A stretch of DNA of 64,000 nt from Reichenbachiella carrageenanivorans (lineage in GTDB: Bacteria; Bacteroidota; Bacteroidia; Cytophagales; Cyclobacteriaceae): positions 1 through 64,000 of the forward strand of contig NZ_CP106735.1 of NCBI RefSeq assembly GCF_025639805.1, given 5' to 3'. The translations under genes and the position numbers were made by a program. Numbering within the stretch: the first letter of the stretch is position 1; every line of letters begins with the position of its first letter. This document shows positions 4,089-26,318 of this stretch, piece after piece. The notes beneath the pieces were generated by a model. The model was not told where the DNA came from. It saw only the letters and a program-made list of their open reading frames with translations, and made no database searches.

Positions 4089-5864
4089 TCACTTCACAGC
4101 CCAAAGTTTCGCAGTACGATCGCTAGAGCCTGTGAGCACCTTGGTTCCATCTGGTGAAAAAGCCACATCATTAATTTGTCCCTTGTGCTGGGTGTACTTT
4201 TGTAGCATATCACCATTGAGTGACCACAAGATAGCGGTGTGATCTGCCGACCCAGTAAGCACTTTTTTGCCGTCAGGCGAAAAAGCCACTGCATTGACTC
4301 CCTTCGTATGTCCTACCAGCTTTTTATTTTTCCTATCCTTGAGCCTCCAGACACGAGCAGTCTTATCTCTCGATCCTGTAATGATAAATTTACCATCAGG
4401 AGAAAAAGCCACATCAGTTACCCAGTGTAAGTGACCAGAAAACTCTGCCACCATATTGCCCTTGAGATCCCACATACGTGCCGTGTGGTCATTGGAGGCC
4501 GTCAGGATGTTTTGTCCGTTAGGCGAAAAAGCCACCGCATTGACCCAGTCTCTATGTCCGCTAAACGACTGTACAAAAGTCCCATCGAGCTTGTATAGTC
4601 TGGCAGTCTTGTCGAAGGAGGCCGTGAGCACATACTGACCATCAGGAGAAAACACCACATCACTCACATGAAAACCATGGCCTGTAAATTCACCTATCAT
4701 ACGACCATTCACATCATACAGCTTGGCGGTCTGATCCCATGAAGCAGTTGCCATGCGTTTGCCATTAGGAGAAAAGGCTACCGATGTGAGCCAATCTTTG
4801 TGACCTTTCAATTCTTCTATCAAATTGCCTCTCACATCCCAAAGCCAAGCCGTCTGATCCCAACCTTTGGTAAGTATCCGACGACCATTTGGGTCTATGG
4901 CTACACTCAATACTTCTTTGGGCAAAGCATATTCCCTAATCAAGTAGCTCTTCGCCTTCACTTTGGCCGGGCGAACAGCTACTTTTTTGGTGCGTTCGGC
5001 AATGATGCGCTCTGCCTCATTGGCAAATTTACCATTAGGTGAAAGCCGAAGATAAACGCGGTAGCTCACCACTGTATTTTCCTCACTGGCTTCCTGCCAA
5101 GCCTGCTCGTCTTTGAGCTCTTCTATTCTGGCAAAAGCCAATTCTTTGTAAGCCCCTTTTGGATTTTCCTGAATATAAGCTTCTAATACAGGGATCGAAT
5201 TGGCAATCAAGGCTTTCTCCCAACTGCTTGCCTCTTGTAAACTGTCCAATTTGAAAACTGCTACGCGTACAAACTTCCCTTCGGGATATGCGCTTAGGTA
5301 TTGTTGATAACCAACCGCTTCATTTTTATTTATATACTCCTGCCAGTCTCTCAATTCTTCCGTACGGTTACGATGTAAAATAGACAGTATAAAAGCACTC
5401 CATATCACCACCAGCATGAGCGTAACGAATACAACTAAGTTTCTAAATATTCTATTAGACACCCGAATGGGTGGATGTCCAATCAGCTCATAAATATCGC
5501 TGAGAAGAATCTGAAAAGTCTTATGAGCCGTGTTTCCATTCCAATTAGAAAGGTTGGTATAGGTAGGTGATGGAATGGTATGTGTCTCCTGAACATCATC
5601 ATAGACCAACGAAATCAGATTGTTTTTATTTAGCGCCAATTGGGCATGCGCCAAAATAGTCTCGTTGACCAAGGCAGCAGGAGACCAAAGTACGATAATG
5701 CAATGAGCACTTTTAAGCGCAGATGCAATTTGCGCATCAAAATGTTCGTCGTCAGCTATGGCAGATTCCCACCAAACCGACCAACCAAATTCTTCTAATG
5801 CTTCTGCCAGTTGCCTGGCTCTTCTTTTGTCTTCTGGAATATAGCTGATGAATACTTCTCGCAA
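4089..5864 (-). CDS. TIR domain-transmembrane-WD40 repeat protein
   Basis: The 591-residue protein has a TIR domain at 1-130 (REVFISYIPEDKRRARQLAEAL start; SVWWESAI loop), one transmembrane helix at about 143-166, three copies of a roughly 45-residue unit ending in P-x-G-K/A-[FY]...A (170-305), and seven WD40 repeats (about 315-591) that would make one complete beta-propeller. TIR domains act as NAD-cleaving enzymes or as assembly modules. Here the position of the catalytic Glu (S-x6-W-x3-E) is H73 and the Trp is T69, so NADase activity is doubtful and a scaffold role is more likely. Topology suggests the TIR domain in the cytoplasm and the propeller on the other side. Similar TIR/caspase-WD40 proteins occur in Cytophagales and cyanobacteria, sometimes as defence genes. 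The function is unproven. Confidence 0.85.
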   Translation of the reverse strand: MREVFISYIPEDKRRARQLAEALEEFGWSVWWESAIADDEHFDAQIASALKSAHCIIVLWSPAALVNETILAHAQLALNKNNLISLVYDDVQETHTIPSPTYTNLSNWNGNTAHKTFQILLSDIYELIGHPPIRVSNRIFRNLVVFVTLMLVVIWSAFILSILHRNRTEELRDWQEYINKNEAVGYQQYLSAYPEGKFVRVAVFKLDSLQEASSWEKALIANSIPVLEAYIQENPKGAYKELAFARIEELKDEQAWQEASEENTVVSYRVYLRLSPNGKFANEAERIIAERTKKVAVRPAKVKAKSYLIREYALPKEVLSVAIDPNGRRILTKGWDQTAWLWDVRGNLIEELKGHKDWLTSVAFSPNGKRMATASWDQTAKLYDVNGRMIGEFTGHGFHVSDVVFSPDGQYVLTASFDKTARLYKLDGTFVQSFSGHRDWVNAVAFSPNGQNILTASNDHTARMWDLKGNMVAEFSGHLHWVTDVAFSPDGKFIITGSRDKTARVWRLKDRKNKKLVGHTKGVNAVAFSPDGKKVLTGSADHTAILWSLNGDMLQKYTQHKGQINDVAFSPDGTKVLTGSSDRTAKLWAVK

Positions 5865-9263: not shown

Positions 9264-9623
9264 TTACATCACTCTGTTTACTACAGTGATGAGATCCTCG
9301 GACGTAAATGGCTTTACTATGTACTCTGAAGCTCCCAGTTCGATGCCCTCATTGATCACGGACTGCTGTCCTACAGCACTCACCATGATAACTTTGGAGG
9401 CGATTCCTTGATCCTTAAATACTTTTAATATATCAGTACCAATCATATCTGGCAAAATATTGTCGAGCGTGATTAAGTCTGGATTCAATTCCATAGCAAG
9501 GTCTATCGCCATTTCACCATTGGGTGCTTCACCAACGATCTCATAGCCTTCGGCTTTCAATGTATCTTTGATCAACGTACGCATGTACATGGAGTCGTCT
9601 ACTATCAATACTTTTTTGCTCAT
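9264..9623 (-). CDS. cheY: CheY-type response regulator
   Basis: This is a stand-alone 119-residue receiver domain with D9/D10 in the acidic pocket, phospho-acceptor D54 (LITLD), S83 and K104 in the usual positions. It would receive phosphate from CheA and pass the signal to the motility machinery or another output. Its start overlaps the cheR stop by 4 nt (ATGA), and it is the last gene of the large che cluster. The convergent regulator gene ends 21 nt away. Confidence 0.9.
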   Translation of the reverse strand: MSKKVLIVDDSMYMRTLIKDTLKAEGYEIVGEAPNGEMAIDLAMELNPDLITLDNILPDMIGTDILKVFKDQGIASKVIMVSAVGQQSVINEGIELGASEYIVKPFTSEDLITVVNRVM

Positions 9624-10456
9624 CTTACTAATTTTATATTTTTCCTTTTTTTATAAATTCTTGTTTTCACATCAAATACTTCGAACATCTTCTTGCCAGC
9701 TTCGGGCATAATATCATAATACCCTATGACTAAGAACCCCCCGTCGTTGAGACTATTATAAAAGAGCTCTAATACTTGAATTTTTAATTTCTCATCGAAA
9801 TAGATCATTACATTTCGACAAAAAATAATATCATGTTTGGTCAGCATCGAATCGTGCACCAAATTGTGCCGTTCGAAAATAACATGACTTTTATAAGCTG
9901 ATTTGATGGTGGCATGACTTTCATTGAAATTAAAAAAATCAGCCAATTTTCTATTAGGGTAAAACGCCAAAAATGGCTTGAGATACTGCTCCACTATGAT
10001 GAGCGAATAATCCCCAGCTCTGGCTTTTTTCAACGCGATAGAACTTAGATCCGTCGCTATGGCCCTAGTCTTTTGCAGCATACCCTTTTCCTCTAATACG
10101 ATGGCCATGGTATACACTTCTTCTCCTGTAGAGCAGCCAGCATGCCATATATTGAGCCTCGGTTTGGCTTTAAATTGATCGAGAATTTGATCTCGGATCA
10201 CAATCCAGGCATCTGGGTTTCTGAATAACTCAGTCAGATTGACCAACAGGTCGTCTATTCCTTTTTCAAAAAATTCTTTGTCTTTGATGATTCTAGCCCA
10301 CAGCTCCAGCATAGAACTCATCTTATGCTTCATCATCAGACGAACAATACTCCTCTTCAAGGACTTTTTTTCATAATTAGTAAAGTCCAAGCCATACCTG
10401 TTTTTCAAGGCCTGCATCAACGCATCTAATTCTTCATCCGATATATTATCTATCAC
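9620..10456 (-). CDS. cheR: Chemoreceptor glutamate methyltransferase CheR
   Basis: CheR methylates receptor glutamates using S-adenosylmethionine, setting adaptation. The 278-residue protein has the all-alpha CheR_N domain (1-75), the NLTELFRNP loop (73-81), the SAM-binding AGCSTGEE motif (106-113) and FCRNVMIYFD (near 228-237), the second family signature. Length is normal. It is coupled to cheY by a 4-nt overlap and follows the CheC-like gene. Its opposite number, CheB, is in the same cluster, so the adaptation pair is complete. Confidence 0.95.
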   Translation of the reverse strand: MIDNISDEELDALMQALKNRYGLDFTNYEKKSLKRSIVRLMMKHKMSSMLELWARIIKDKEFFEKGIDDLLVNLTELFRNPDAWIVIRDQILDQFKAKPRLNIWHAGCSTGEEVYTMAIVLEEKGMLQKTRAIATDLSSIALKKARAGDYSLIIVEQYLKPFLAFYPNRKLADFFNFNESHATIKSAYKSHVIFERHNLVHDSMLTKHDIIFCRNVMIYFDEKLKIQVLELFYNSLNDGGFLVIGYYDIMPEAGKKMFEVFDVKTRIYKKRKNIKLVR

Positions 10457-10491: not shown

Positions 10492-11121
10492 TTATACTAA
10501 TTCCTTAGCCAATATTTGCTCTGCGTTGGCTTTCACTTTTTCTATAAAACTCTCTTGTAATAGCCACACAAACTCTGGAGCCACACCCAAATGAGGAATA
10601 CTAAAAATAGCACGAAACTCTACTTTTGACTTGTACACCACAGACTCTGCCTGAATGTACTTATTTACTTCATTGGCTTGCATCACGTGCAACGAAGGCA
10701 CGTTGCCATATATTTCCAAATCCAGAAAATTAGCTAACTGTGTGATGACAGAACCAGCTACCATATTGTCGATCTCCGTGAGATACTCCAATTTCATCAA
10801 GCGAGTTTCTGGATTGTTGTTGAGCAATATTTCTTCGGGCAGACCTGCATTCTGAATCTTTTGCACTTCACTTTCTGAAAAGATCAAATGACAAAAGCCT
10901 TTGAGGTCGCCTACTAATTCTGTTTTTAGCAAATGTGTTTTGCTATCGGCTTTAGTGCAATACTGCGGTACATCAGACACCGTTTCAAGAGAGGTGGTGA
11001 TGCTTTTGAGGGTAGCCTCCGAGCGCAAGATACTCTGGAAGGCAGTGGCCGCCTTTGACAATCCAAATTCTAGTAATTTGTTGGCTGCGCTGGTTTCCCT
11101 TTCTGTCAAATTATTAAACAT
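10492..11121 (-). CDS. CheC-like chemotaxis phosphatase
   Basis: The 209-residue protein resembles the CheC/CheX/FliY group, which dephosphorylates CheY-P. One complete active-site helix is visible, with E116-I-D-N119 followed by MVAGSVITQLANFL, the ExxN motif of the group. The pseudo-equivalent N-terminal helix (LLEFGLSKAATAFQSIL, about 16-32) keeps the shape but not the second Asn, so only one of the two CheC sites looks functional. It sits between cheA and cheR in a cluster with no CheZ. A CheX-like or purely CheD-binding role is an alternative; no cheD gene is present in the window. Confidence 0.75.
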   Translation of the reverse strand: MFNNLTERETSAANKLLEFGLSKAATAFQSILRSEATLKSITTSLETVSDVPQYCTKADSKTHLLKTELVGDLKGFCHLIFSESEVQKIQNAGLPEEILLNNNPETRLMKLEYLTEIDNMVAGSVITQLANFLDLEIYGNVPSLHVMQANEVNKYIQAESVVYKSKVEFRAIFSIPHLGVAPEFVWLLQESFIEKVKANAEQILAKELV

Positions 11122-11138: not shown

Positions 11139-12947
11139 CTAATTTTCACTTTCTACTGATTTCTGAGCCAATGTTTTAAACATTAGATCTGAGATGGTGG
11201 TCACGTCTATGACCAAACAAACTTTGCCATTACCCAAAATGGTGGTTCCACTGAGGAGCTTAGTTTTTTCTAATGGAGGTACCATAGATTTTTCTATGAT
11301 TTCCTTTTGCTGAAGCAAACGATCGACTACCATGCCTAGCAGCTTGCCTGCATACGAGAGTACGATCACATCCAATTTTACATCTTCTTCGATCGCCTCA
11401 AAACTCTGGTGCAAAACACCTTCTTTCTGACAATCTGCAAGATTTTCAAGATTGACTATATCTTTCAAAAAGATGATCGGTATGGTCTGATCGAGGTATT
11501 GCGCCATCAGTCCATCCGTAATCCTGTGGATGTCGCTCTTGGCTAAAGATACCACTGCTTCGGTATAAGACAAGGCTACCGCATACTCTTGTTCGCCTAG
11601 TTCGAAGAGCAGTGCTCCTTTTAGGGCCATAGATGAAGGCAAGTTGAGCTTGATCGTAGTGCCCATGCCTACTTCAGTATCTACCTTGATCTGGCCTCCG
11701 ATAGACTCTGCCGCTTTTTTCACCACATCCATCCCTACACCTCTACCAGAAATTTCGGTGATTTTTTCAGCATTAGAAAAGCCTGGTTCGAAGATGTACA
11801 TAATCACTTCATCGTCGGATAGGCTTTGTGCTAGTTCTTTGCTGGCCAGCCCTTTTTCTACGATTTTTCTGCGAATGATTTTGGCATCTATGCCATTACC
11901 ATCATCGCCTACTTCTATGACTACATTATCTTTCTCATAATGAGCACTGAGAATAATAGTGCCTTTATCTGGCTTTCCTTTGCCTCGCCTTTCTTCACTA
12001 CTTTCTATTCCATGACTCACGGCATTTCGCACTAGGTGAATCATGGCATCACTCATGATTTTGAGTATGTTTCTGTCTATTTCACATTCGGTACCTTGTA
12101 GGACCAAACTCACCTGTTTGCCTTCGATGGCGGCTACATCTCGTATGATTCGGTGAAATTTATTGAACAAAAAGCCCACCTGAACCATACGGGCATTCAT
12201 GACTCCATACTGCAGATCTGAAGTGATTCTTTGTAGACCTTCGAACTCTGAGGTTCGCTTACCATCTACACTATTGAGTGTGATTAGTCGATCTCTTTCG
12301 ATGATAAGCTGTCCCACCATGGTCATGAGTTCGTCCATTTTTTTGACTGGAATCTGGATCACATCAGTAAATGTGATCTCCGATTTCATTGCCTGAAGTT
12401 TACTTGCATCGACCGATGGACTGCTGGCTTCTTTTTCTTTGATGAAATCCATCATTTCCTGACGATCTTCATCTTCTGCTGCTTGTACTTTGGCTTCGTT
12501 GGATGTTGCAGTCGCTGATTCTTCGTTTACCGCTTTTTGTTCAGGGTTTACTTCTGTGGCCTTGGTATGTTTTTCTAAGAGTACAAATAGTTTGGTTTTG
12601 ATACCCAAGTAGGCCACTTTCTCACCTGTACTTAGTGCACCAATCAATGCACCCAATTTGTCATTGGCCTTAAAAAGGCTATCAAACAAGTCTTTGTTGA
12701 GCGCCATATTGCCTTGCTGCACAGCACCCATTACATCTTCCATGACGTGGGTCAGCTCAGCGATGTCATTGAACCCCATCCCCATCGCATTGCCCTTGAG
12801 GGTATGTACGATTCTAAAGATGGAATTGATGGCATTCAGGTCTGAATGATCGTTTTCCAGATCGGTAAATAAGCGGTTTAATTCTTCGAAATTCTCCAGC
12901 GCTTCGGCATGAAAGAGTTCTCTATATTCTGCTTCTTTGGACTTCAA
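11139..12947 (-). CDS. cheA: Chemotaxis histidine kinase CheA
   Basis: CheA autophosphorylates and transfers phosphate to CheY and CheB when receptors signal. The 602-residue protein begins with an Hpt (P1) domain with phospho-acceptor H48 in RIVHTLKGNA, then a low-complexity acidic linker (about 135-190), the P3 dimerisation domain (about 190-260), the HATPase P4 domain with HLVRNAVSHG (N box) and GRGVGMDVVK (G box), and a CheW-like P5 domain from about 440. No clear P2 (CheY-binding) domain is present in the linker, so phosphotransfer may be directly from P1. It lies between cheB and the CheC-like gene, with 12-17 nt gaps, in one operon. Confidence 0.96.
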   Translation of the reverse strand: MKSKEAEYRELFHAEALENFEELNRLFTDLENDHSDLNAINSIFRIVHTLKGNAMGMGFNDIAELTHVMEDVMGAVQQGNMALNKDLFDSLFKANDKLGALIGALSTGEKVAYLGIKTKLFVLLEKHTKATEVNPEQKAVNEESATATSNEAKVQAAEDEDRQEMMDFIKEKEASSPSVDASKLQAMKSEITFTDVIQIPVKKMDELMTMVGQLIIERDRLITLNSVDGKRTSEFEGLQRITSDLQYGVMNARMVQVGFLFNKFHRIIRDVAAIEGKQVSLVLQGTECEIDRNILKIMSDAMIHLVRNAVSHGIESSEERRGKGKPDKGTIILSAHYEKDNVVIEVGDDGNGIDAKIIRRKIVEKGLASKELAQSLSDDEVIMYIFEPGFSNAEKITEISGRGVGMDVVKKAAESIGGQIKVDTEVGMGTTIKLNLPSSMALKGALLFELGEQEYAVALSYTEAVVSLAKSDIHRITDGLMAQYLDQTIPIIFLKDIVNLENLADCQKEGVLHQSFEAIEEDVKLDVIVLSYAGKLLGMVVDRLLQQKEIIEKSMVPPLEKTKLLSGTTILGNGKVCLVIDVTTISDLMFKTLAQKSVESEN

Positions 12948-12959
12948 CGTTTTCCCTTT

Positions 12960-13985
12960 TTATAAACTATTGACTAAAAAACTTCCGATTTCTTTGATAT
13001 CGATTGACTTGTCAATCGCTCCACACTGCACCGCTGCTTTCGGCATCCCATAGATGACACTCGATTTTTCATTTTGTGCGATGGTGTATCCTCCAGCCTC
13101 CTTGATGGCCTTCATTCCTTCTACTCCGTCTTTGCCCATACCCGTCAGGATGACTCCTAATGTCTTGGCGCCGTGTACAACAGCTGCAGAGAGCATAATC
13201 GAATTGATCGACGGATTGTTGTATTCTCTAAACTGTTGCTCCGTAAAATCGAGCTTGATTTTTTTCCCTTTTTTAGCCAAAACCATATTGCCAGATCCTG
13301 GTGCGATAATGACCGTACCGGCCATAGGCTCCATATTTTTGGCACCCACTACTACATTGAGTGGACTCAGTTTGTTAAGCCGTTTTACGAATGGGGCTAT
13401 AAAATTAGTAGGCATGTGCTGGCCTATGATCACTGGCACGTTGAGGTTGGATGGTAGCGACACAATGATTTCTTCGAGCGCACTAGGCCCTCCTGTAGAA
13501 GCGCCTATGACAATCAGATCGTATTTGCTATTACCATCAAAAGTATGCTTATTCGTATTTCTTGTAACCGCTTTTACTGCCATTGGCTTGGCACGTGTCA
13601 CACTTCTTATTTTTTGGATCAACTCATCCTCAATCAACCTAATCTTGGAATTGCCACGAGAAGGCTTGTTGAGATAATCCACGGCTCCTTCTTGCAAAGC
13701 ATCAAATATAGGCTGCAAGTTGGTGTTGCCCACGGAGCTCAAAATCAGGATTGGTAGCGGAGCTTCCTTCATGATGTTTTTCACGGCATAGATACCATCG
13801 TACTCACCCATGTTCATATCAAGCAACAACACATCAGGCTTCAGCTCTTTCACTTTTTCTAATGCATCCTTACCGTCGATAGCTGCACCTACGACTTCCA
13901 TACCTTCATTTTCAGACAGGATATCTGATATCAATAGGCGCATAAAGCCTGAATCGTCCGCTATGAGTATCCTCGTTTTAGTCAT
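12960..13985 (-). CDS. cheB: Protein-glutamate methylesterase CheB
   Basis: CheB demethylates (and deamidates) chemoreceptors when phosphorylated. The receiver domain (1-120) has D10/D11, phospho-acceptor D56 and K108. The C-terminal esterase domain carries the triad S163 (GASTGGP), H190 (GQHMP) and D286 (GMGKDG). Length (341) is normal. The stop lies 12 nt from the cheA start, and the ParP-like cheW stop abuts the cheB start, so the genes are co-transcribed. Confidence 0.96.
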   Translation of the reverse strand: MTKTRILIADDSGFMRLLISDILSENEGMEVVGAAIDGKDALEKVKELKPDVLLLDMNMGEYDGIYAVKNIMKEAPLPILILSSVGNTNLQPIFDALQEGAVDYLNKPSRGNSKIRLIEDELIQKIRSVTRAKPMAVKAVTRNTNKHTFDGNSKYDLIVIGASTGGPSALEEIIVSLPSNLNVPVIIGQHMPTNFIAPFVKRLNKLSPLNVVVGAKNMEPMAGTVIIAPGSGNMVLAKKGKKIKLDFTEQQFREYNNPSINSIMLSAAVVHGAKTLGVILTGMGKDGVEGMKAIKEAGGYTIAQNEKSSVIYGMPKAAVQCGAIDKSIDIKEIGSFLVNSL

Positions 13986-13986
13986 A

Positions 13987-14844
13987 TCAGTTGCCGTCTT
14001 TTACAGACTCGGCAATTACCCTTACTTCGTCGCTTTCTATTAGCTCTATGATGTCGAGTAGGATAATCATCCCATCTTCGTTTTTGATCAACCCTTTGAT
14101 AAAGGTCTCGTCCAAAACGGTATTGTTCATGATACCTGAAGAACTTTCGATAATATCTCCTTGTACCTTGAGTGTGGTAGGTACCTCGTTGACCAATATA
14201 CCTGCTTTGAATCGTTCGTTTTTGATCACTAATGTGAACAGCTTTTCTTTGATGTCTTCTTCGGACTTAAACAATTCAAATTTTTCTTCCAAATCCATTA
14301 TCACCATTACCGAACCACGGATATTGGCAACCCCTTTCATATACTTAGGTGCTCGTGGCAACTGAGATACAGTGGGTGCTGGTACAATTTCTTTGACTTT
14401 GTCGATCTCTAGTGCGTATCTCTCACCTCCCAACCTAAATACAATCAACTGAATGCTTTTGCCTTTGAGCTGTTTGATCTCTTGGTCGTATTTGGCCTTG
14501 AGTCTGTTGCGTTGTTCCATCTCCTCTTTGGTAAGGAAGTTGGCAGGCAACACTCTTTTGGCTTGGGTCAGAATCGGAGACTCCGCTACTGCAGCTACTT
14601 CGAGTACCTCTACTTTGCTCTCTACTGGGGGCTTGGCTGCTGTAGGTTTGACAGATGTCTTCTTGCTTTTAGTTGCCGCCTTTTTTACCACAGGTTCTTT
14701 CACTACTTTTTTTGTCTTGGGCGCAGCTTTTTTAGCTGGCTTAGACGCAGTCTTCTTTACAGCCTTTGTCTCCACTGCCTGCTCCTCCTTTTTGGGCTTG
14801 GAGGGGATCAACTTGTCTTTCTTTACGTTCTTACCTAAAGCCAT
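13987..14844 (-). CDS. CheW-domain protein with Lys/Ala/Pro-rich tail (ParP-like)
   Basis: The C-terminal half (about 125-275) is a CheW coupling domain (QLIVFRLGGERYALEIDKVKEIVP; MKGVANIRGSVMVIMDLEEKF) that should join CheA and receptors in arrays. The first 80 residues are instead a histone-H1-like tail rich in Lys, Ala, Pro and Thr. The gene directly follows a ParA-like ATPase gene. In Vibrio the CheW-like protein ParP ties arrays to the ParA-type ATPase ParC. By architecture and neighbourhood this protein could play that part, its basic tail either stimulating the ATPase or touching DNA. The CheW identity is certain; the ParP role is inferred. A second, tail-less CheW is encoded at 21591-22211. 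Confidence 0.88.
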   Translation of the reverse strand: MALGKNVKKDKLIPSKPKKEEQAVETKAVKKTASKPAKKAAPKTKKVVKEPVVKKAATKSKKTSVKPTAAKPPVESKVEVLEVAAVAESPILTQAKRVLPANFLTKEEMEQRNRLKAKYDQEIKQLKGKSIQLIVFRLGGERYALEIDKVKEIVPAPTVSQLPRAPKYMKGVANIRGSVMVIMDLEEKFELFKSEEDIKEKLFTLVIKNERFKAGILVNEVPTTLKVQGDIIESSSGIMNNTVLDETFIKGLIKNEDGMIILLDIIELIESDEVRVIAESVKDGN

Positions 14845-14859
14845 TAGCGCTGTGATTTA

Positions 14860-15606
14860 TCATTTTGCTTTTAATATTTCTTCGGCAAAAGCCATGTAGT
14901 CTTCTGCTCCATTCGATGTGGGGGCATAACTAATAAGGCTTTCTCCAAAAGAAGGTGCCTCACTTGCTCTCACATTCGTTCTGATTCGAGAATCAAATAT
15001 TTTAAAATTATAATTCTCTTCTATATGCTCGTAGATCTCTCTGCTCAACTTGCGACGGCTATCCACCATCACAGGTAAAAGCCCCATTATTTCAAGGTTT
15101 TCATTCAATACTTCTTTGATTTGATTGATCGTAGAAATAATCTGATCTAAACCTTGTAGGCTCAATACTTCCATCTGCAAGGGCACGATGACCCTGCTGG
15201 CAGCATTGAGTGCGTTGATGGTGAGCAAGGACAACGATGGTGGACAGTCGATCAACACATAGTCATACCCTTTGGCTGTAGCCAATATTTTTTTGAGGAT
15301 AGACTCTCTGGCTAGTTCGCCAGCAATGCTGATTTCTACATCTGCTAAATCGATCTGTGCAGGTGCCACTTCTAGTCCCTCTCTAGGGATCAAAATATCT
15401 CTAAAATCTATTTCTCCTAAGATCACCTGCCCGATGGATTTTTCGATTTCCAATATTCCAAGAGAATAGCTTAAATTGCCTTGGGCATCCAAATCAACCA
15501 GCAATACTTTCTTGCCTTTTTTGGCCAGAGCACAGCCGAGATTGACTGTAGTGGTAGTCTTTCCTGTCCCTCCTTTTTGGTTTACTATAGCTATAATCTT
15601 AGTCAT
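14860..15606 (-). CDS. ParA-family ATPase in che cluster (ParC-like)
   Basis: This 248-residue Walker-type ATPase has the deviant Walker A motif KGGTGKTTT at 11-19 and the LVDLDAQGN segment (36-44), and DCPPSLSLL as Walker B. It lacks the N-terminal helix-turn-helix of plasmid ParA, so it is the short chromosomal type. Placement between a chemoreceptor gene (8-nt overlap with its stop) and the tailed CheW gene argues for positioning chemosensory arrays in the cell, like ParC of Vibrio or PpfA of Rhodobacter, rather than chromosome partition. No parB gene is adjacent, which supports this reading. Confidence 0.88.
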
Positions 15607-18130
15607 CCGATGCTTTCATGTTTTGAGACAACATAAACTTACTGATTCCGCTCTTTAGGTCTTCGGCTACTTTGGCTAGCTGTTGCGATTTTTCGGTGTA
15701 TCCCATCATACCAGAAGAAAGCTCTGTGGCTGAACTGGCCACTTGCTCTGTACCTGCAGCTGTCTCTTCTGCAATTACTACCACATTTTCAGTAATGGCC
15801 ACTACTGCATTGATGTCTTTGACCTGTAGCCTAGTGGCTTCTAATATCTCCTGCGAATGTCGGAAGGTACGATCTGAAGTCTCAGATATTTCTTTGAATA
15901 CATCAGAAGCATCTTTAGATGCCTGCTCTCCATTTCTCACAGTCTGACTCATGATCTCGATCACCTTGGCAGCCTCCCTTGTATCCGCTTGCACATCGCT
16001 GACGAGTTTTTCGATTTCTTTGGCAGAGTTTCTAGAGTCTTCAGCCAATTTTCTTATTTCTTCGGCTACTACTGCAAACCCACGACCTGCATCACCTGCC
16101 TGAGCAGCTTCGATAGCTGCGTTCAGTGCCAGTAGATTGGTCTGGGAAGCAATTTCGGTAATCACACTCAATACTCTTGTAATCTCTGCGGATCTTTCAG
16201 TCAAGATCTGAATAGACTCATGCGTTTTGGAAGAATATTCCGATATATCTACCATGTTGAAGACTACTTTATTGACCATCTCCAGTCCTTTTTCGCTACT
16301 GCCTACTCCTTGCTTAGCGGCTTCGTTGATGGTTTCAGCTCTTTCTCCCATTTCATTGGATGACTTGAGGATACCTTCTACCAAATTAGACGATTCGTCT
16401 ACTTTGCTCACCTGAGTTTGTGCACCATTGCTCATTTCTGATATGGCAGAAGCAATCTCTTTGGTATTGGTATTCATTTCTTCGCTAACTACGCTCATTT
16501 CAGCAGATGATTCGTCTACGAAATTGGCGTTTTCAGCAATACTCATCAGCAGTTCGGTGAGGCTATCCAACGCCTTGTTGAGATTGCCTGAAAGGCGTGC
16601 CATATCTCCGCTAGCCTGTGAACGAAACCGTTTGGTAAGGTCTCCATCTGCCATGGCATTGACGATATCATTGACAGCCATGACGGGTGTGGATACAGAC
16701 TGTAGCAAGTTGTTGACCGAATCGCTCAAATCTTTCCATCCTCCTCGCTTGGCTGCAGTTTGAATTCTGGCGTTCAAGTTACCTGCATTCCCGGCTTCCT
16801 CTACTACTTCTTTTACATCGTCGAGCACCGTTTTTAGATTGTCTCTCATGCTGAGTAAAGAATGACCGAGCATATCTTTATCGCTCGACACTTGGAAATT
16901 CAAATCCAAATTACCTTCTCCAATTTGCCTTGAAAACTCAGCTTTCTTAACTAATTCATCTACCAAGACATTGACTGATCCAGCCATCTGGCCCAACTCA
17001 TCTGAGGAGTCCACAATGAGTTTTTTATTTTGATTTAAATCACCTAGTGCTAGGTCTTTCAAAAGACTGTTTGATTTTTCAATAGAAGTGGTGATATAGT
17101 TAGATATTTTAAGGATGATTATAAACAATACGGCCAGTCCAATCAGCCCTACAAAAACAGTGATAAGTAAAGTACGGTTAAACGACGCTGTAATTTCTGC
17201 TACAGGCACGATTGTCGCTGCCCACCAAACCTGACCAGTTTTACCCAAATTGACTGGGAAGAACGAAACATACACCTCTGCACCAAAATCCGGGTCGAAA
17301 ACAGTAAAAGAGAAAGCCTCCTCTTGGCTTATTTTCCCAAGTATGTCGAAGTCTAATTGCTTCACAAAACCCAACTGTTCTAAAGAGGCATTGAATAACG
17401 CAGTATCTTGATGGGCAATGATCTTGCCTTTGGCAGACACTAGAAAGGCGAAACCATCTTCATAAAATTCTATGGTAGACATGGTCTGAAAATCGCTTAA
17501 CGATAGGTCTGCTCCAATACAACCAAGATACCTATCTCCCGCTAAAAGCGGCACTACTGTGGATGTTCCTAAAATCGAATCTCGGTCTATCTTACTATAA
17601 TCATAATCTGCATACATATAGGGTTCGGACAGAGATTCTACTTTTTCTGTTTTCAATAGATGATAGACGCTTCCTTCGTCATCTCCTTCGGTATTGGCTA
17701 ATTCAGAAGAGGAACGCACTTGCCCATCTCTGACGTAGAAGTTTTTACGCTCTCTACCATAAGGGAGTGTCCATTCTGGATCGATAGCCGAAAGTTCCCA
17801 GCTCATAAAAACAGCATCGTACTTGGGGTTGTCTAGCAGTACACTGGTCATCAACTCTTCGCGTACTTTGTCACGTTCTTCTACGGGTGCATCCACAAAC
17901 CGCTCAAGAACTCTGCCCATGGTACGAGCTATGGCCAAGTCTTCGGCAAGACTGGCTTTGATCTCATTAGCCTTGGTAGATGCATAAGTATCTGCCAAGA
18001 TTTCAGCTTCTGCAATGGCCTTTTCTCTTAAACTAAAACTTATATAGCTTAGCGTAATCACATATATCAAACCCGTGACTCCCAAGATGAATACCATCAT
18101 CTTTCTTCTAACTGTAATGCTTTTTATCAT
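15599..18130 (-). CDS. Methyl-accepting chemotaxis protein, dCache with tandem HAMP domains
   Basis: The 843-residue receptor has a transmembrane helix at about 12-32, a large periplasmic dCache-like sensor domain (35-310) and a second transmembrane helix (about 318-340). Then come a HAMP domain and further HAMP-like units (about 345-560, each with a DxDLG/GNL-type turn), and a cytoplasmic signalling domain. The hairpin tip contains [18 protein letters not shown] and [17 protein letters not shown]. The sensor domain shares a distinctive segment ([17 protein letters not shown]) with the neighbouring receptor, so the two arose by duplication. The ligand is unknown. The gene overlaps the parA start by 8 nt. 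Confidence 0.95.
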
Positions 18131-18158: not shown

Positions 18159-21100
18159 TTAAATATCCAGCACCACATCTGGATACTTTTCTTTCAACTG
18201 AGGAAGGTACTGCTTCCCTTTTATTTTATCTTCTTCAATTTCATTTTGAATGATCAAAAGCCCCCAATCTTCAAATTCAGGGATTAAAATCGGTACTTTT
18301 TTAATAAACCAATATTTCTGTTTCTCTCTGAGAATTACTTTTTCGAGACTATATACTGGCTCACGAGAAGCTACTAGTGCCTCTTCTTTAGTTTTAATTT
18401 TTGCAGCAAATTCTTCATCATAAAAATCGAAGTCACTCTTACCAATAATTTCCTCCAATGGATATCCAAAATCTTTGGCTACAGCTTCATTTAGCATATA
18501 AATAATCCCTTTGGGGTCTTTCAAGGCAATTTTATAATCTATTTTATTAATGATGTCTCCAAACAGACCATTTTGCTTTTTGATGAGCTCCATATTGCTT
18601 CTCATCTGCTCTTCTCTTGCCTCACTTTCCCGCTGCGCTGCCAATTTGATTTCGGTTATGTCTCGGGTAATGCCATAGGTACCTATGATATTACCATCCA
18701 AATCTCGAAGAGGCAGTTTAGTGGTTGCCACGTATCTAGTAGTACCATCCTTTTTATCTACTTTTTCTTCCGAATTTAGAATTGGTTCTCCAGTCTTGAT
18801 GATGTTTAATTCTTCTTCATAGGACCTTTTGGCATGATCTCCAAAGAAGTCGAAATCACTTCGACCAATGACTTCCTCCCCTTTGTTTGCACCCAACATA
18901 CGAACATGCGAAGCACTATTCCGGATGAATTTACATTCAAGATCTTTGAAATAAATATGATCTGGCATGTAATCTAGTAAAGCGTCTAAGAGCATCTTCT
19001 CATGCTCAAAGGCCTCTCTCATTTTGAATATAGCTGTATTCTGCCCTGCCTTACCTGAAAGCTTAACCATACTCACTCCGTTTTTCAACACTTCTGCTAC
19101 TTGAGCAAGGCTTTGTGTCTTATCATTGAAAAGTTCCATTCCTGACGACAATTCGTTAGCCGAACTGGCGACCTGTTCTGTACCTGCAGCCGTTTCTTCG
19201 GCAATCACCACAATCGCTTCCGTAAGTGTCACCACTTCATTGATATCTCCAATCTGTAGTTTGGTGTCATTCAAAATTTCTTCCGAAAAACTTAAATTAG
19301 CTGTAGCCGACTCTAATATCTTTTGGAATACATCGGAAGCCTGAGCAGATGCTTCGCTACCGTTCTTCACACTGGCATTCATGATTTCGATGACATCTGC
19401 AGCCTCTTTGGTGTCTTTTTGCACTCCGCTGACAAGCAACTCAATTTCTTTGGCTGATGCACGTGAGTCTTCCGCCAACTTTCTAATTTCTTCAGCCACC
19501 ACAGCAAATCCTCTACCAGCATCTCCTGCTTGCGCTGCTTCGATCGCAGCATTCAATGCCAATAGATTAGTCTGTGAAGCTATCTCAGTGATGACGCTCA
19601 GTACTCTTGTGATTTCCTTAGAGCGCTCCGTCAATATTTGTATAGACTCCTTAGTTTTTGATGAATAGTCTGAAATATCGTCCATATTGAACACTACTTT
19701 ATTCATCATTTCTAGGCCTTTGGCACTACGATCTGCGGCATCTTTTGCTCCTCGATTGATGGTTTCGGCTTTGCTCGCCATTTCGTTGGAGGAATTCAGA
19801 ATACCTTCAATCAAAGTAGATGATTCGTCTACCTTGGACACTTGATTTTGCGCACCATTACTCATCTGTGCAATCGCAGAAGCAATTTCCGACGTATTGG
19901 ATGTCATCTCTTCTGTTGTCACTTTCATTTCGCCAGTGGCTTCGTCCACTGTAGATGAGCTGTTCAAAATTTGATTCAAAAGACCGTCAATATTGTCAAG
20001 TGCCTTATTGAAGTTGCTCGATATTTCTTCAATTTCCCCTTTGGCTTCTTCGGTATAGCGCTTGGTCAGATCTCCATCTGCCATGGCTTTGATGATTCTG
20101 TTGAGGGTGATGAGTGGTGCTACAAATGAACCTAGCAGATTATTGATAGATGCGCTCAACTCTAACCAGGCACCTTGCTTTCCTTCTTCTACTACTCGTG
20201 CACTGAAGTTGCCTTCCTCTACAGCCTCTCTTATGACCGCTTTGGTGTCATTGATCACGATTTGAAGATTGTCTCTCATTTTCATTAGCGACTGACCCAG
20301 TACATCTTGTTCGCCAGACACCTCAAACGGTGCGTCTAAATTGCCTTCTCCTATTTCCTTTGAAAAATTGGATTTCTTGCTCAACTCTATCAAAAGCTGA
20401 TTCAGGGATCCTCTCATTTGTCCCAATTCATCTTCGTTATCTGCATCGATATTTAAGGTAAAATCAAGATCTCCTACTGCCAGTTTTTTCATAGCTTGAT
20501 TCGTGTCTATGATTCGTTTTGCAAATCGGCCAGAAATATTCCAGATGATGAGGCTCAGCAAAACAAACCCAATCAAACCTCCTGAAATCAAAAATCTGAA
20601 AGCGATTAAAAATGAGTTATTGATCTCGTCGAGAGGCAATACGATACCCACTGCCCATGGCTGCGTAGCCCCATTTAATAAAATAGGGGCAAATGACACA
20701 TAAATATCATCATTCAAAGTCTCATCATAAGTCACGTATGACGTAAAATCACCTTCTCCGATACGCTCTACCACCTCTAAATCAGCATCGAAAAAAGAGA
20801 GGTCTGCCACGGATTTCGTCACCATAGACTGATCATCATATGAAGCGATCATGCCGCTGTTAGCCACCAAGAAAGATTTTCCTTGGGCATATACGGTGTC
20901 TTGCACGGCCTCTGAATAACCCAACAAGGAATAATCTGTACCAATCAGTCCTACAAACTGATCCCCTTTCATAATAGGAATACAAGGTGATGTAATCAGT
21001 GATCGATTAAGGTACCCGTCTTGATAGTTATCGCTCACATAGGGCTCAGACATTTCTTCATGAGGCGAAGCCTTTATTCTATAATAGTCGCCCGTAAGAT

Positions 21101-21560
21101 CTTGACCATCCGTATCCAAAGTTTCAATGGTTTCAAGGATCTGACCATCTTTCCAAAAATAGGTGATTCTTTGTCGGCCATATGGCAAAGTCCACTCAGG
21201 ATCAATAGCGGATAGTTCCCAGCTCATCCATACGGCATCGTAGTTGGGGTACTTTTTCAATATACTGGTCATCAATGACTTTTGCATGGTATATCGAGTC
21301 TCTGGATCCAATGTAGTATAATCACTAAGGATCACGGCCATAGATCGAGCGATTGACATATCTTCTTGCATATTAGCATTGATGTCATTAGCCTTTTGTA
21401 CGGCATATGTATTCGCCAAACTAACCGCCTCTTTAAGTGATTCTTCTTTTAATTGGAATCCTACATAACCAAAAATGATAAAATATATCAGGGTAGTTGC
21501 CCCTATAATATATAGCATCATCTTCTGCCTTATCCTTAGTTTTTTCAACTTTTCCTTCAT
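18159..21560 (-). CDS. Methyl-accepting chemotaxis protein with two C-terminal PAS domains
   Basis: This 1,133-residue receptor has the same plan as its neighbour: TM helix, dCache-like periplasmic domain with [18 protein letters not shown] helix, tandem HAMPs and a signalling domain with the standard tip (about 700-730). It continues beyond the signalling domain (ending near 840) into two PAS domains (about 865-985 and 1010-1120), each with the FDFF/FDFY turn after GRSD/GKSD. PAS domains normally sit before a signalling domain. At the far C-terminus they could sense a cytoplasmic ligand or redox state, or recruit partners at the membrane-proximal end of the four-helix bundle. The reading frame is continuous, so this is a real fusion. 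Confidence 0.95.
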
Positions 21561-21590: not shown

Positions 21591-22211
21591 TTAGTCTTGG
21601 TCACTCTTGATCATCTCTAAAATATCGATAAGTATAATCATTCGATTATCTTTTTTGATAACGCCATTGATAAAGTGCTGCTCATTGTTTGACTTTCTCA
21701 TCACATCGGCGGTACTGTTGATCTGGCTTTCTTTAATCATGAGTGTTTCGGGTACTTGACTAGATACCACAGCGACCTTCACGTCCTCGCTATTGATCAC
21801 GATAACGTAATTGATCTCATCTGCTGCTTGTCCTTTTTTCAGTCCAAATTTTTTGGCTAAGTCTATTACAGCTAATACATTGCCACGCACATTGGCCACA
21901 CCTTGGATATACTTCTTGGTCTGGGGTACGGGCGAGATGGGAGGTACGGGTACTACTTCTTTGATCTGGCCTATTTCAAAAGCATACTCTTCTTTTCCTA
22001 CGGGAAACACCACCAGCATTCGACTGTTTTCTTCGACCTGCTGCGTAGCCTCTAGGTCATGGTTTAGTTGGTTCAGAGATTGTGTATCTCTTTGGTCTAG
22101 TTTGGTTTCAGTCTTGGGCACCAACGAGCTATCTACAGTTGCATCCTGAACTTCCTGTTTTTCAGGAATCGCTGCTTTGGTTCCTTTCTTCAAATTATTC
22201 CCTATTGCCAT
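21591..22211 (-). CDS. cheW: CheW coupling protein
   Basis: The 206-residue protein has an approximately 60-residue leader followed by a CheW domain (65-205), with FPVGKEEYAFEIGQIKEVVP and YIQGVANVRGNVLAVIDLAKKF, the typical SH3-like fold signatures. CheW links receptors and CheA in arrays. It begins the chemoreceptor part of the cluster, 30 nt before the PAS-containing receptor. It is close in sequence to the CheW domain of the tailed protein at 13987-14844 but lacks the basic tail, so the two could form different array positions. Confidence 0.92.
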   Translation of the reverse strand: MAIGNNLKKGTKAAIPEKQEVQDATVDSSLVPKTETKLDQRDTQSLNQLNHDLEATQQVEENSRMLVVFPVGKEEYAFEIGQIKEVVPVPPISPVPQTKKYIQGVANVRGNVLAVIDLAKKFGLKKGQAADEINYVIVINSEDVKVAVVSSQVPETLMIKESQINSTADVMRKSNNEQHFINGVIKKDNRMIILIDILEMIKSDQD

Positions 22212-22246: not shown

Positions 22247-23506
22247 TTAGAAGCGTACTCCAACCAAACTTTTGTACCTATACTCACGCAATAGCTTGGC
22301 CTGCATGATCATTGGAAATTTATGTAATTCTTCGAGAAGCAGCTGTGTACTCAAAAGTGCCGAATTACTATCTGATTTTTTAGTACTATCGTCGATCACA
22401 TTATTAGGTATAAAATACAGTTCGGAAACTTCGAAGGTATCGAACTGAATCACGTCGATGTCTGGCTCTACACCGGGTATCAGTGGTGCCACATTTCCCG
22501 AAAGGGTCTTAAATTCTCCACTTTTATTGAAAGAATACAAGCTATGATTGGCTCCACCAAACAAGAGTGATTCGTCGTGCTTATCGTACACCAAAAGAGC
22601 GATATCTACCGAGCAAATGTTTTCATCGTACTTCTTTCCGAAGAATCGGTTTTGAATTCTGATAGACAGGGTAGATAGTATTTCTCTAGGGTCATAGATC
22701 CTGTCTTTGTACATGAGCTCCATCAATGTGGCGCAAATGAAGGTATTCAAGGTGAGTGCGTGTATGACGCCCGAGTTGGTATTGAAAGACGTGATCAGCA
22801 GTTTGTTTCCCACTTCGCCAAACCAATAACCATTATGGTTGACTCGGTTGTGCTCATAGAGGATGAAGGCATCTTCTATATATAAGCGTAGCTCCTCCTG
22901 GCGCGGCAAGAGGGATTCTCTTAGTGAGACGTTGAACTCAATGACTTGATCCATATTGACGGTAGACATCATGTTTTTTCGTGCCTCTACCGATTTGATA
23001 ATTTCTTTTTTCAGCTCTTGCTTGGTCTTGACCCCAGGGTCCAAGGTAGGTTTGGGGACAACAGGAGTAACATCAGGCTTTTTTTCCTCTTCTTTAGGGT
23101 TACGGATTTCTAAAGCTTTATCAAATTCCTCTTTAAGGTCTTCTTGATTCCAAGGCTTCACTAAAAACCGATCGAGTCCTACCTCCTGATCTACACGAAT
23201 AATCTCATCTTCGTCGCTAAAGCCCGTCATAATCATCCGTGCGATATTGGGGTACTGTGGTACGATTTTGATGAGGAGCTCTACACCCGTCATGCCAGGC
23301 ATGCGCTGATCGGTCATGATCAAGTCTATTTCCTGACTTTCTAATATTTTGATCGCATCTGTACCAGATTCCGCGGTAAACACATTGTAGTGACGCTTGA
23401 ACGCCCGCTGAAAAATTCGAAGGTTTACTTCTTCATCATCCACGTACAGAATACTGTATTTTTTAACTTCTTCGTCCTTGTATGTCCTGTCTAGTACTCC
23501 TTCCAC
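22247..23506 (-). CDS. Response regulator fused to a degenerate PP2C/SpoIIE-like phosphatase domain
   Basis: Residues 15-135 form a receiver domain (D23/D24, phospho-acceptor D66 in LIMTDQRMPGMTG, K117). After a proline-rich linker, 185-412 align by eye with the SpoIIE/RsbU PP2C fold: SLRESLLP at the start, GANHSLYSF and VDIAL in the core. The metal ligands are gone. The GDFYW position reads HNGYW (D to N225), the DCTGHG position reads FNTNSG (D to F241), and the TDG position reads PNN (D to N368). This suggests a pseudophosphatase that binds rather than cleaves. In the SiaABC system a PP2C phosphatase (SiaA) acts on SiaC; here siaB and siaC lie 1.5-2.8 kb upstream, so this protein could be a phosphorylation-gated SiaC binder. 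The histidine kinase gene just upstream is the likely phosphodonor. Confidence 0.8.
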   Translation of the reverse strand: MEGVLDRTYKDEEVKKYSILYVDDEEVNLRIFQRAFKRHYNVFTAESGTDAIKILESQEIDLIMTDQRMPGMTGVELLIKIVPQYPNIARMIMTGFSDEDEIIRVDQEVGLDRFLVKPWNQEDLKEEFDKALEIRNPKEEEKKPDVTPVVPKPTLDPGVKTKQELKKEIIKSVEARKNMMSTVNMDQVIEFNVSLRESLLPRQEELRLYIEDAFILYEHNRVNHNGYWFGEVGNKLLITSFNTNSGVIHALTLNTFICATLMELMYKDRIYDPREILSTLSIRIQNRFFGKKYDENICSVDIALLVYDKHDESLLFGGANHSLYSFNKSGEFKTLSGNVAPLIPGVEPDIDVIQFDTFEVSELYFIPNNVIDDSTKKSDSNSALLSTQLLLEELHKFPMIMQAKLLREYRYKSLVGVRF

Positions 23507-23515
23507 AATAAAAAA

Positions 23516-24823
23516 TTAAGCTGGTGCTGATTCCATTGATTTGTTTACTTTTCTGAGCTTTTTAGGCAATGTAATCACAAACTCAGTGCCTTTGCCCTCG
23601 GTGCTTTCGACTGCTATAGTCCCGTTGTGTTTTTCGATGATTCCATAGGTAATCGCCAAGCCTAGTCCCGTACCTTTCCCTACTTCTTTGGTAGTAAAGA
23701 ATGGGTCAAATATTTTCTTTAGCGTGTCTTCTGACATGCCTTTACCGTTGTCTCGTATCGTGATTTTGACATGGTCTTGGTCTACTTCTTCTGTCTTTAT
23801 ATTGATTGTACCTTTAAAATCTATGGCATCACAGGCATTGCCTATGAGGTTCACCAACGCTTGATTGAGTTGTCCGGGAAGACACTTAATTGGCGCGATG
23901 TTGGTGTCCAAGTCTTTGAGTACCTTGGCTTTTTTCTTGTACTTAGGCTTTAGGATCACTACAGCGTTCTCCACGATCTGGTTGACATCTGCCTCTTTGA
24001 TTTCTACCTCGTCGTGTCGTGCAAATACTCGAAGTCCGTTTACGATTTCGGTGATTCGGGTAGTCCCATACTCCACATCGTCGAGCGACTCACTGGTGGA
24101 CGTTTGCAAATCGCTAAAATGATGATCGTCTTCTCGCTGAATTTTGTAATACTTCTTGATCTCCTCCAAACTATCGAGCTCGCAGATCCGCTTATAGTTT
24201 TCGATAAATACATTGAGCTGTTTGAAATTATCTTTGAGGGTATTCACTCCATTCGCCACAAAGTTGACAGGGTTATTGATTTCGTGTGCGATACCAGCAG
24301 TGAGCTGACCTAATGAAGACATTTTTTCGGACTGAATAAGTAAGGCTTGCGTTTTCTCCAGTGTCTTGCTCGTTTCTTTGAGTTCTCTACTTGCCGCAGC
24401 TTGCCTAGCCAATTCTACTTTTTCTTTGGCTTGCTCTTTATATTTAACCACCAACTTGTCATATTCTTTAGCGAATAAGACTTTCATTTCTTTCTTCTGT
24501 TCTACAGATTTTTGATACGCTTGATGAATTTTACTGACTTGAGCTTCCTTACTTTTTAGCTGGTTTCTAATATCGGCAATTTGCATTTCTGCCATGATGC
24601 TCTTCTTGCGAATAGCCGAAGTATAATAGAATGCTCCTCCCGCCACACCTAGCAACAGCAGTGCTAAAACCAAAACAATACTATTCGATGAGCTTTCTCT
24701 CGATCTCTCCACTTCTTCAGTAGTGTCCTGCTGGCTCTCCAACGGGCGTGCCATGGCTTGAAAACCATTCAAATTGATAAGCAGTACTGCAACAGCCACT
24801 ATAAAAACAATCTCTCTTCTCAT
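23516..24823 (-). CDS. Membrane sensor histidine kinase
   Basis: The 435-residue kinase begins with a signal-anchor (4-22), a short periplasmic stretch and a transmembrane helix (about 48-69). A coiled coil (75-165) and a HisKA domain with H180 ([14 protein letters not shown]) follow, then a HATPase domain with N, G1 (DNGKGMSE) and G2 (GKGTGLGL) boxes. With almost no periplasmic domain it probably senses within the membrane or through partners. The gene lies 9 nt upstream of the REC-pseudophosphatase gene, so the two form a kinase-regulator pair at the head of the che cluster. Confidence 0.92.
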
Positions 24824-24968
24824 ACTATTTGCCTACCGAGCACATCGCCCTTTGGGATAATTGGTTGAAAACTAGGGTAAAATTGGTTTTTCTAATATAC
24901 ACGATTCTACAACTAAATTATAACATTAAAACCATTTAGAAAGGGATATAATAAGAATACCGACCTTG

Positions 24969-24988
24969 GAGTTTCTATGCAGAAACTC
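24969..24988 (-). terminator. Hairpin after siaC
   Basis: GAGTTTC and GAAACTC form a 7-bp stem with a 6-nt loop about 45 nt after the siaC stop and about 145 nt before the kinase gene. It lacks a following T-tract, so it may only attenuate transcription or protect the 3' end. Confidence 0.35.
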
Positions 24989-25031
24989 TAACCACAAACC
25001 ACCAAAAAAATAGAAAGAAAGAATCTGAAAA

Positions 25032-25442
25032 TTATGAAGCCTGACGCAACTGATCCTTGATTTTGAATACTTCTACAAACTTGAAAGGATAATTGTAATG
25101 TTCACTTATTTCACGTCCGATTTCCAAAATATTAGGCCTATTTTTCTCATAATACCATGTGATATTCAATGGTCTGTTGTCTGACGACAAAGAAATCAGT
25201 TTTTTCACAAGGATGTGGAGATAGGTAGTAGAGTCTTCAATGTTTTTTAGTGCAAAATTCACATTGATCTCATTTATATCTTGGTTATCTAATGCTGGAA
25301 GGTGGCTAAATACATGGCCATAAAAGCTGAGTGGATCATCGGGCATAGAATTTCCTCGAAGCTCAAGCTCTCCATGACTCGGTCTAAAACTCACCGAAGG
25401 AGTAGTACCAGTAGGCCGTATGAAATATCCATCCATCATCAC
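25032..25442 (-). CDS. siaC: SiaC-family regulatory phosphoprotein
   Basis: The 136-residue protein matches SiaC (DUF1987) along its length: TPSVSFRPSHGELELRGNSM near the start, then a middle segment with S71-T72-T73 in EDSTTYL, the position of the phosphorylated threonine (T68 in Pseudomonas). The family is a small ferredoxin-like fold whose phosphorylation by SiaB and dephosphorylation by SiaA switches a downstream effector. In Pseudomonas the effector is the diguanylate cyclase SiaD. No GGDEF protein is in the window, so the effector here differs or is elsewhere. The kinase gene lies upstream; the first three codons are all ATG, so the start could be any of them. Confidence 0.85.
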   Translation of the reverse strand: MMMDGYFIRPTGTTPSVSFRPSHGELELRGNSMPDDPLSFYGHVFSHLPALDNQDINEINVNFALKNIEDSTTYLHILVKKLISLSSDNRPLNITWYYEKNRPNILEIGREISEHYNYPFKFVEVFKIKDQLRQAS

Positions 25443-25709
25443 AATCGAATTATTCTAAAATCTCTATTTATTAAAATGGTCTATAATTATTCTAAGATCC
25501 AATATTAGACATTATTATGACGCATTTCAATCCGTTTTTGTACCTAATGTGACTTTTAGGTGAAATCACTAATCGGGTGATTAGCCGTAAAACAGTCCAA
25601 AAAACAACCTGAGGCCACACTTTATAAGTTAGCGTATTTCACCAAAAAATAAAAATTTGACAATCACGGATGACCTGCTGAATTTTATTCCTTCACAACG
25701 GCCTAAAAC
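25443..25709. other. siaB-siaC intergenic region
   Basis: This 267-nt gap separates siaB from siaC, long enough for its own promoter. It contains a small inverted repeat CTAATC-GGGT-GATTAG (25569-25584), a possible operator. No gene is visible in it. Confidence 0.4.
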
Positions 25710-26318
25710 TTAGATTTCTTCTTTTCGAATGCGGATGGTTAAAATGAAAAAGCAGTGCTCTGCATCGAGTGGTTCGAAATAATATTCATACTCCGTGCCT
25801 GTCCGTTTTTTGATATCGATAAAGCCAAGACCAGCACCTCCTTTTTCTGAAATGGTAGTGTTTTCCATCGTGGTCTTATGCAATGCTCGCAGCTCTTCTT
25901 TGTCTAGCGAGTTTACTCGATCCAATATATCTCTAAGCCGCACTGCATTGTCTAGTGAGATTTGATTGCCCGTGGTTACATAATATTCGTAGTCGTTGTC
26001 GCCTATGAGGAAGATACCGTCTTTGGCCAGACCATCTTCTAGGCTATTCGAAGCATACTCAGCAGTACTGTCCGCGTGCTTACAAATATTTTGCAAGGCT
26101 TCTATCATCACATGATACACCCGACGAGACACTTTCTTGTCTTCTTTTTTGTCGGTCATATCTTCTTCGGTCATAGCCGTGATACCGTTGATGGTATTTT
26201 GAGTAATCTTCCCTAGGTAGACAATGTTGACATCGGATCCTTCCATAAGATCTCTGAAAGCCACAATGTTTTTGAGGTGGTTCAGTTGGTTCGTCTGTCT
26301 TTTTCTAATATTATCCAT
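25710..26318 (-). CDS. siaB: SiaB-family protein kinase
   Basis: The 202-residue protein matches the SiaB (DUF6272) family, GHKL-fold serine/threonine kinases. The N box is seen as E73-A-L-Q-N77 (IEALQNICKHAD) and the glycine-rich lid as GGAGLGFID (160-168). It should phosphorylate SiaC, encoded next downstream, in a partner-switch relay. The usual antagonist, an active SiaA-type PP2C phosphatase, is missing in the window; the only PP2C-like domain is degenerate. A functional phosphatase must therefore be encoded elsewhere, or the switch works without one. Confidence 0.85.
   Translation of the reverse strand: MDNIRKRQTNQLNHLKNIVAFRDLMEGSDVNIVYLGKITQNTINGITAMTEEDMTDKKEDKKVSRRVYHVMIEALQNICKHADSTAEYASNSLEDGLAKDGIFLIGDNDYEYYVTTGNQISLDNAVRLRDILDRVNSLDKEELRALHKTTMENTTISEKGGAGLGFIDIKKRTGTEYEYYFEPLDAEHCFFILTIRIRKEEI

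Follow-up and report, generated by a model that had tools for sequence, protein, structure and literature searches.

A receiver protein with a SiaA-type PP2C fold but no metal-site acids in a gene row that joins siaB and siaC to a chemosensory operon in Reichenbachiella

We analyzed a 64,000-nucleotide stretch of the Reichenbachiella carrageenanivorans genome (contig NZ_CP106735.1, positions 1 to 64,000; here called the window), in which genes for a SiaB-family kinase, a divergent SiaC, a histidine kinase (HK), and a response regulator (RR) precede a chemosensory (che) operon. The regulator joins a receiver to a PP2C-like domain that has lost the acids matching the SiaA active site, and this domain is under selection and is very probably not a relic. 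By its sequence and modeled fold, it has retained a phosphatase's shape and lost its chemistry, and it probably works by binding under two-component control. We put at roughly 45% the probability that the row encodes a genus signaling cassette in which the HK acts through D66 of the receiver on a dead PP2C domain that binds SiaC, or a SiaB-SiaC complex, and is wired to the receptor array.

The receiver and the PP2C-like domain of the regulator

The receiver is the only Pfam domain in the regulator, whose C-terminus had no Pfam match at an E value of up to 1. The homologue rows used were drawn from 120 listed of 1575 matches: 31 of the 44 window-type matches (P0001 to P0044; the window is included), 14 of the 27 matches to a shorter paralogue described below (P0045 to P0071), and 19 later ones. 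Receiver residues D23, D24, D66, T94, and K117 are invariant in all 64 rows, in agreement with the receiver half of the fusion proposed in a preliminary description of this DNA. The HK has its H and ATPase boxes, and the features of a two-component pair are thus present.

The relation of the C-terminus to PP2C phosphatases was seen in an alignment with receiver-SpoIIE proteins. Comparison of the dead domain with intact PP2C domains by hhalign gave a probability of 99.2 (E value of 7.8e-20, 214 columns), and the structure model confidently shows a SpoIIE/SiaA PP2C fold; the fold suggested earlier was thus borne out. A PDB search with the alignment of the dead domain alone returned no solved relative at an E value of up to 1, so the link to a solved class was made via intact relatives and the modeled fold. 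By sequence, and via these intact relatives, the nearest solved class is SiaA.

The conserved active-site residues of SiaA are given as D457, D474, D600, and D653 in the cited part of its description (PMC7647112); their mapping onto motifs and columns is our own. The matching columns hold N225, N242, N368, and Y411 in the window regulator, and all four sites are free of acids in every one of the 31 window-type rows. Residues at the first site are N (29 rows) or Y (2), and those at the last are Y (30) or F (1). The preliminary description had placed the lost acids at positions 225, 241, and 368. The first and third stand; the second is N242 rather than 241 by both multiple alignment and hhalign, and a fourth acid, the aspartate of the DDI motif (SiaA D653), is lost as well. 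One acid is kept in the column of SiaA D534 (D301; D or E in 31/31), which would suit a domain that is still an enzyme via other residues or a single metal; with the sites matching the SiaA residues reported in that same portion of PMC7647112 acid free throughout, we consider continued catalysis most improbable.

Among the 14 short-paralogue rows, D occurs at the second site in one and E at the last column in three. All four acids are present in 17 of the 19 other rows, 18 of which already had a SpoIIE annotation and most of which were chosen for that; the two exceptions, P0096 and P0110, lack the third acid and have E at the second site. In a midpoint-rooted tree of 45 rows, window-type and short-paralogue regulators group together with support of 100/100, apart from the others used, which is consistent with a single loss of activity before their split. 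P0096 and P0110 form their own partly eroded branch outside the genus with L054 (9956-11230) and L056 (298-1575) (support of 100/99), which by its sequences is a separate erosion, and a receiver-PP2C protein of another genus (L035:9980-11149) is eroded at several sites. Eroded receiver-PP2C proteins are therefore not confined to the genus; neither the subtype of the window regulator nor its linkage was found outside it.

Several further proteins (P0109, P0112, P0114, P0115, P0119, P0120, and two regulators in L045) have a receiver and a C-terminus with neither intact PP2C motifs nor a listed Pfam domain, at about 370 to 410 amino acids; the two in L045 (9968-12413) stand in tandem behind a kinase. 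By their sequences, these proteins may represent another set of dead PP2C-like regulators.

In comparisons of the window with its two closest relatives in the genus, the PP2C-like part differs by 0.91 to 0.96 at synonymous sites and by 0.067 at nonsynonymous sites; nonsynonymous differences are 0.08 to 0.09 in the receiver and 0.19 to 0.24 in the linker. More distant genus pairs rank linker (0.24 to 0.34) above PP2C-like part (0.15 to 0.18) above receiver (0.09 to 0.11). The loop of the first metal acid (N223, N225 to G230) is among the segments conserved at 90% or more.

Linkage to siaB, siaC, and the che operon

A regulator of the window type is present in all eight genus genomes examined, and each of them has siaB, siaC, HK, RR, cheW, and mcp in this same order on one strand. 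Since regulator identity falls to about 42% across these genomes, the linkage is more than chance. In the window, the gaps are 267 bp (siaB-siaC), 208 bp (siaC-HK), 9 bp (HK-RR), and 35 bp (RR-cheW). Across the genus, the HK-RR and RR-cheW gaps are short (3 to 21 bp and -8 to 48 bp), suggesting that HK, RR, and cheW are probably cotranscribed, and those between siaB and siaC (119 to 267 bp) and between siaC and HK (61 to 214 bp) are wider. The Bacteroidota promoter-like pattern TANNTTTG was counted 57 times, where 57.9 would be expected, and is missing from the gaps before siaB, siaC, and HK.

The whole row, from siaB to the cheY-like gene, comprises 14 genes on the minus strand (26318 to 9264) of a genome that forms one contig of 4,812,735 bases (Table 1). 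Coordinates and strand agree with the earlier statement that siaB, siaC, the kinase, and the regulator share one strand. That these are followed directly by cheW and the che genes holds for the first cheW; two genes for methyl-accepting chemotaxis proteins (MCPs) and a ParA-type gene precede the second cheW-cheB-cheA block. No GGDEF family (as in a SiaD-type diguanylate cyclase) was found among the Pfam matches of the 14 genes.

Table 1. Genes of the row in the window, in order from siaB
Gene	Position	Strand	Product or feature
siaB	25710..26318	-	SiaB-family kinase
siaC	25032..25442	-	Divergent SiaC (DUF1987)
HK	23516..24823	-	HisKA + HATPase
RR	22247..23506	-	Receiver 19-127 (D66) + SiaA-type PP2C fold, ~185-419
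cheW (first)	21591..22211	-	35 bp behind regulator
MCP 1	18159..21560	-	1133 amino acids; HAMP, MCPsignal (605-775), PAS
MCP 2	15599..18130	-	843 amino acids; HAMP, MCPsignal; Cache match below cutoff
ParA-type ATPase	14860..15606	-	Inside che operon, between receptors and second cheW
cheW (second)	13987..14844	-	
cheB	12960..13985	-	
cheA	11139..12947	-	
CheC/CheX-like	10492..11121	-	Weak in Pfam: CheX below cutoff, CheC slightly above it
cheR	9620..10456	-	
cheY-like	9264..9623	-	Receiver

In MCP 1, the PAS domains lie C-terminal to the signaling domain, and array placement is a possible role of the ParA-type ATPase. Beyond the row, positions 4089-5864 encode a protein that has a TIR domain at its N-terminus and WD40 repeats at its C-terminus.

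Co-occurrence of the gene set, which the preliminary description proposed as a check, was seen within the genus, and the window-type regulator was not found in 290 other genomes of the order. Weaker regulator matches occur in 43 of the latter; among 29 loci fetched, DCTGHG is present in 29 and SGDF(Y/F)W in 26, so that by motif these look like intact phosphatases. Fourteen related che regions of other genera contained no siaB, HK, or window-type RR within the stretches read, and among the matches listed no close siaB-cheB pair was seen by eye outside the genus. One of the 14, a che operon in another family of the order, has genes for an intact PP2C phosphatase and an intact SiaC at its end, behind cheR (L183:7718-18321). 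Among 10 genomes of that family, a related cheB occurs in 3, and siaC lies on the cheB contig in this genome only, among the matches listed; one genome in 10 makes it a single case. On this survey, coupling to che seems to have arisen at the level of the genus, with a single separate parallel elsewhere.

If the linkage were incidental, the PP2C-like domain could be a decaying relic. The regulator type was not found outside the genus in the 290 genomes, and the stretches read around the two che operons with the closest cheB (L180 and L181, of the same family) contain no sia cassette, as such a reading would allow. We nevertheless disfavor it and consider it very improbable, given a confident fold, divergence from the nearest relatives of about 7% at nonsynonymous against more than 90% at synonymous positions, and a gene order kept in 8/8 genomes down to about 42% identity.

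A possible receiver-gated partner switch

SiaB scored above the NCBIfam cutoff for SiaB-family kinases (145.6 versus 85 bits) and above that of Pfam DUF6272, and below the NCBIfam SiaB equivalog cutoff (60.7 versus 225). What we take to be its N-box, with the glutamate and asparagine (E..xN), and its GAGLG motif are kept in 8/8 genus genomes, which favors a working kinase. SiaC is above the Pfam SiaC cutoff (PF09345; 74.3 versus 24.5 bits) and below the NCBIfam equivalog cutoff (44 versus 150), and the SiaC fold is present in its model.

In this SiaC, the residue aligned with the phospho-site is altered. The T68 column of SiaC falls on D70 of the window protein by MAFFT and hhalign, and on I68 by phmmer against solved SiaC. 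In the MAFFT alignment of window-type SiaC (the window and 19 of 21 matches, with P0130 and the fragment P0141 omitted), this column is D in 11 and G in 9 of 20 rows, whereas the seven SiaC paralogues of the source genome have T in six and S in one. The preliminary description inferred that the dead domain binds phospho-SiaC without cleaving it, which was not established, and that phosphorylation of D66 would decide binding. Beside this column, S71 is invariant in 20/20 rows. In the AlphaFold model (pLDDT of 90.8), a strand (59-68) ends and a helix (72-85) begins so that S71 directly precedes helix alpha-2; T68 sits at the N-terminus of the matching helix, as the cited portion of PMC7647112 describes. 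The acceptor may therefore have shifted by one residue, from Thr to Ser, or been lost; S71 may also be kept merely as a helix cap.

In the cassette that we favor, the HK would phosphorylate the receiver at D66, as intact motifs and the 9-bp spacing of the two genes suggest, and the receiver would control the catalytically dead SiaA-type domain. This domain would be a binding module, not a phosphatase, for the neighboring SiaC or a SiaB-SiaC complex, and receiver phosphorylation would substitute for dephosphorylation as the event that changes the partner of SiaC. The switch may be coupled to the receptor array, whose genes stand in the same row. The strongest argument for SiaC as the client is descent from a SiaC phosphatase together with the fixed neighborhood. 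A narrower form, in which the SiaC acceptor has moved or gone and the partner acts on the chemoreceptor array, possibly for gliding, is put forward more tentatively. The source genome encodes SprA, which marks type IX secretion and, in many cases, gliding.

Paralogues in the source genome bear on this reading. Matches number 8 for siaC, 3 for siaB, and 5 for SpoIIE. An intact siaB-coiled-coil-HK-receiver-PP2C cassette (L017) and a siaC-phosphatase pair (L019) are present, and so is a second dead receiver-PP2C-like regulator of 377 amino acids, directly behind its own long HK (L031:7110-10980). This short paralogue occurs in 8/8 genus genomes. Its pair is closer to that of the window (kinase, 56% identity; regulator, 37%) than is the L017 pair (49% and 34%), and no siaB or siaC lies within the 15-kb stretch around it, the nearest siaC being about 13 kb away. 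By eye, the N-terminus of the L031 HK is TPR-like, and two other siaC genes (L023 and L026) come after a receiver-type regulator gene. The window siaC is the only one of the eight beside a siaB.

Several points weigh against the favored reading. The two strongest are the changed phospho-site, with which ancestral recognition of phospho-SiaC may be gone, and L031, which is equally dead with no adjoining siaB or siaC, so that a dead PP2C domain here needs no neighboring SiaC. The gaps of 267 and 208 bp around siaC allow separate transcription. Among the 290 other genomes of the order, the window-type regulator was not found (C-terminus matches of at most 58.8 bits versus at least 174.6 for genus orthologues), and SiaC of the window type was not found (E value of up to 1e-22). 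The PP2C-like part also evolves faster than the receiver in distant genus pairs, and its mean top-residue share is 0.57 versus 0.76.

The domain could instead be an RssB-like adaptor for another client (a sigma factor, a protease, or either CheW or a receptor), with SiaB and SiaC as a parallel input. We judge this unlikely, if still a serious contender, because sequence ancestry indicates SiaA and because siaB and siaC are kept alongside in 8/8 genomes. Signaling might also run in reverse, with SiaB-gated SiaC binding the coiled coil of a sensorless HK and feeding the phosphorelay, and the dead PP2C domain serving as an output or dimerization part. The HK has no sensor domain above the Pfam cutoff, and its N-terminus, read by eye, has two hydrophobic segments and a long likely coiled coil before HisKA; SiaC activates SiaD through the coiled-coil stalk of the latter, according to the cited part of PMC8457831. 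However, the SiaC residues that serve in SiaD binding, N67 and T68, are not conserved, and we regard this direction as doubtful.

Comparison with known systems

A relative of this SiaABC-related switch controls biofilms in another bacterium; here it is fixed beside a chemosensory operon in a marine Bacteroidota genus. If the receiver-gated SiaC-binding reading is true, a phosphatase-based partner switch could be converted into a binding-based one under two-component control, a route would exist from a partner switch to a chemosensory array, and one operon would join Ser/Thr, His-Asp, and methylation signaling. L017, as an intact cassette of the same families in the same genome, is a natural control that makes the change directly testable.

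SiaABC(D) is described as a threonine phosphorylation switch of Pseudomonas aeruginosa (cited parts of PMC7647112 and PMC8457831). In the window, by contrast, the PP2C domain, which has no metal acids, forms one protein with a receiver and is paired with an HK; no SiaD adjoins the row, SiaC does not have T68 at the aligned position, and the row is joined to a che operon. The architecture of the regulator, a receiver with a PP2C fold whose active site is absent, is of the RssB type. As presented in the cited section of PMC7226468, RssB of Escherichia coli and P. aeruginosa combines a receiver with a PP2C fold, and the E. coli form is without active-site residues and acts by protein binding. The order receiver-linker helices-PP2C fold is shared; unlike RssB, the window regulator is nearest to SiaA by sequence and is kept beside siaB, siaC, and che genes. 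HptB-HsbR-HsbA of P. aeruginosa is a partner switch that adjoins CheR-like and CheW-like genes and affects chemotaxis, and HsbR, like the window regulator a response regulator with a phosphatase domain, is described as an active phosphatase and kinase on HsbA (both from the cited part of PMC5085249). Here, the switch has a SiaC-type partner, a dead phosphatase, and SiaB as a separate kinase, and its genes are followed by a complete MCP-CheA operon. Intact Bacteroidota receiver-PP2C cassettes also resemble the row and belong to common families: L017 (siaB-HK-REC-PP2C), whose kinase is of the same family, and L042 and L044 (siaC-REC-PP2C). Their metal-site motifs are intact, and no che gene is seen among the open reading frames listed for L017 or those annotated in L042 and L044.

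A receiver with a dead, binding-type PP2C domain (RssB), a phosphatase-response regulator partner switch near CheR/CheW-like genes (HsbR), and the SiaB/SiaC switch are thus already known, and the cited portions of PMC7226468 and PMC5085249 offer partial precedents for a combination that the preliminary description did not know to be described. For the union of these three, with a dead SiaA-type domain, an altered SiaC, and a full che operon in one conserved row, no description was found in the open library searched.

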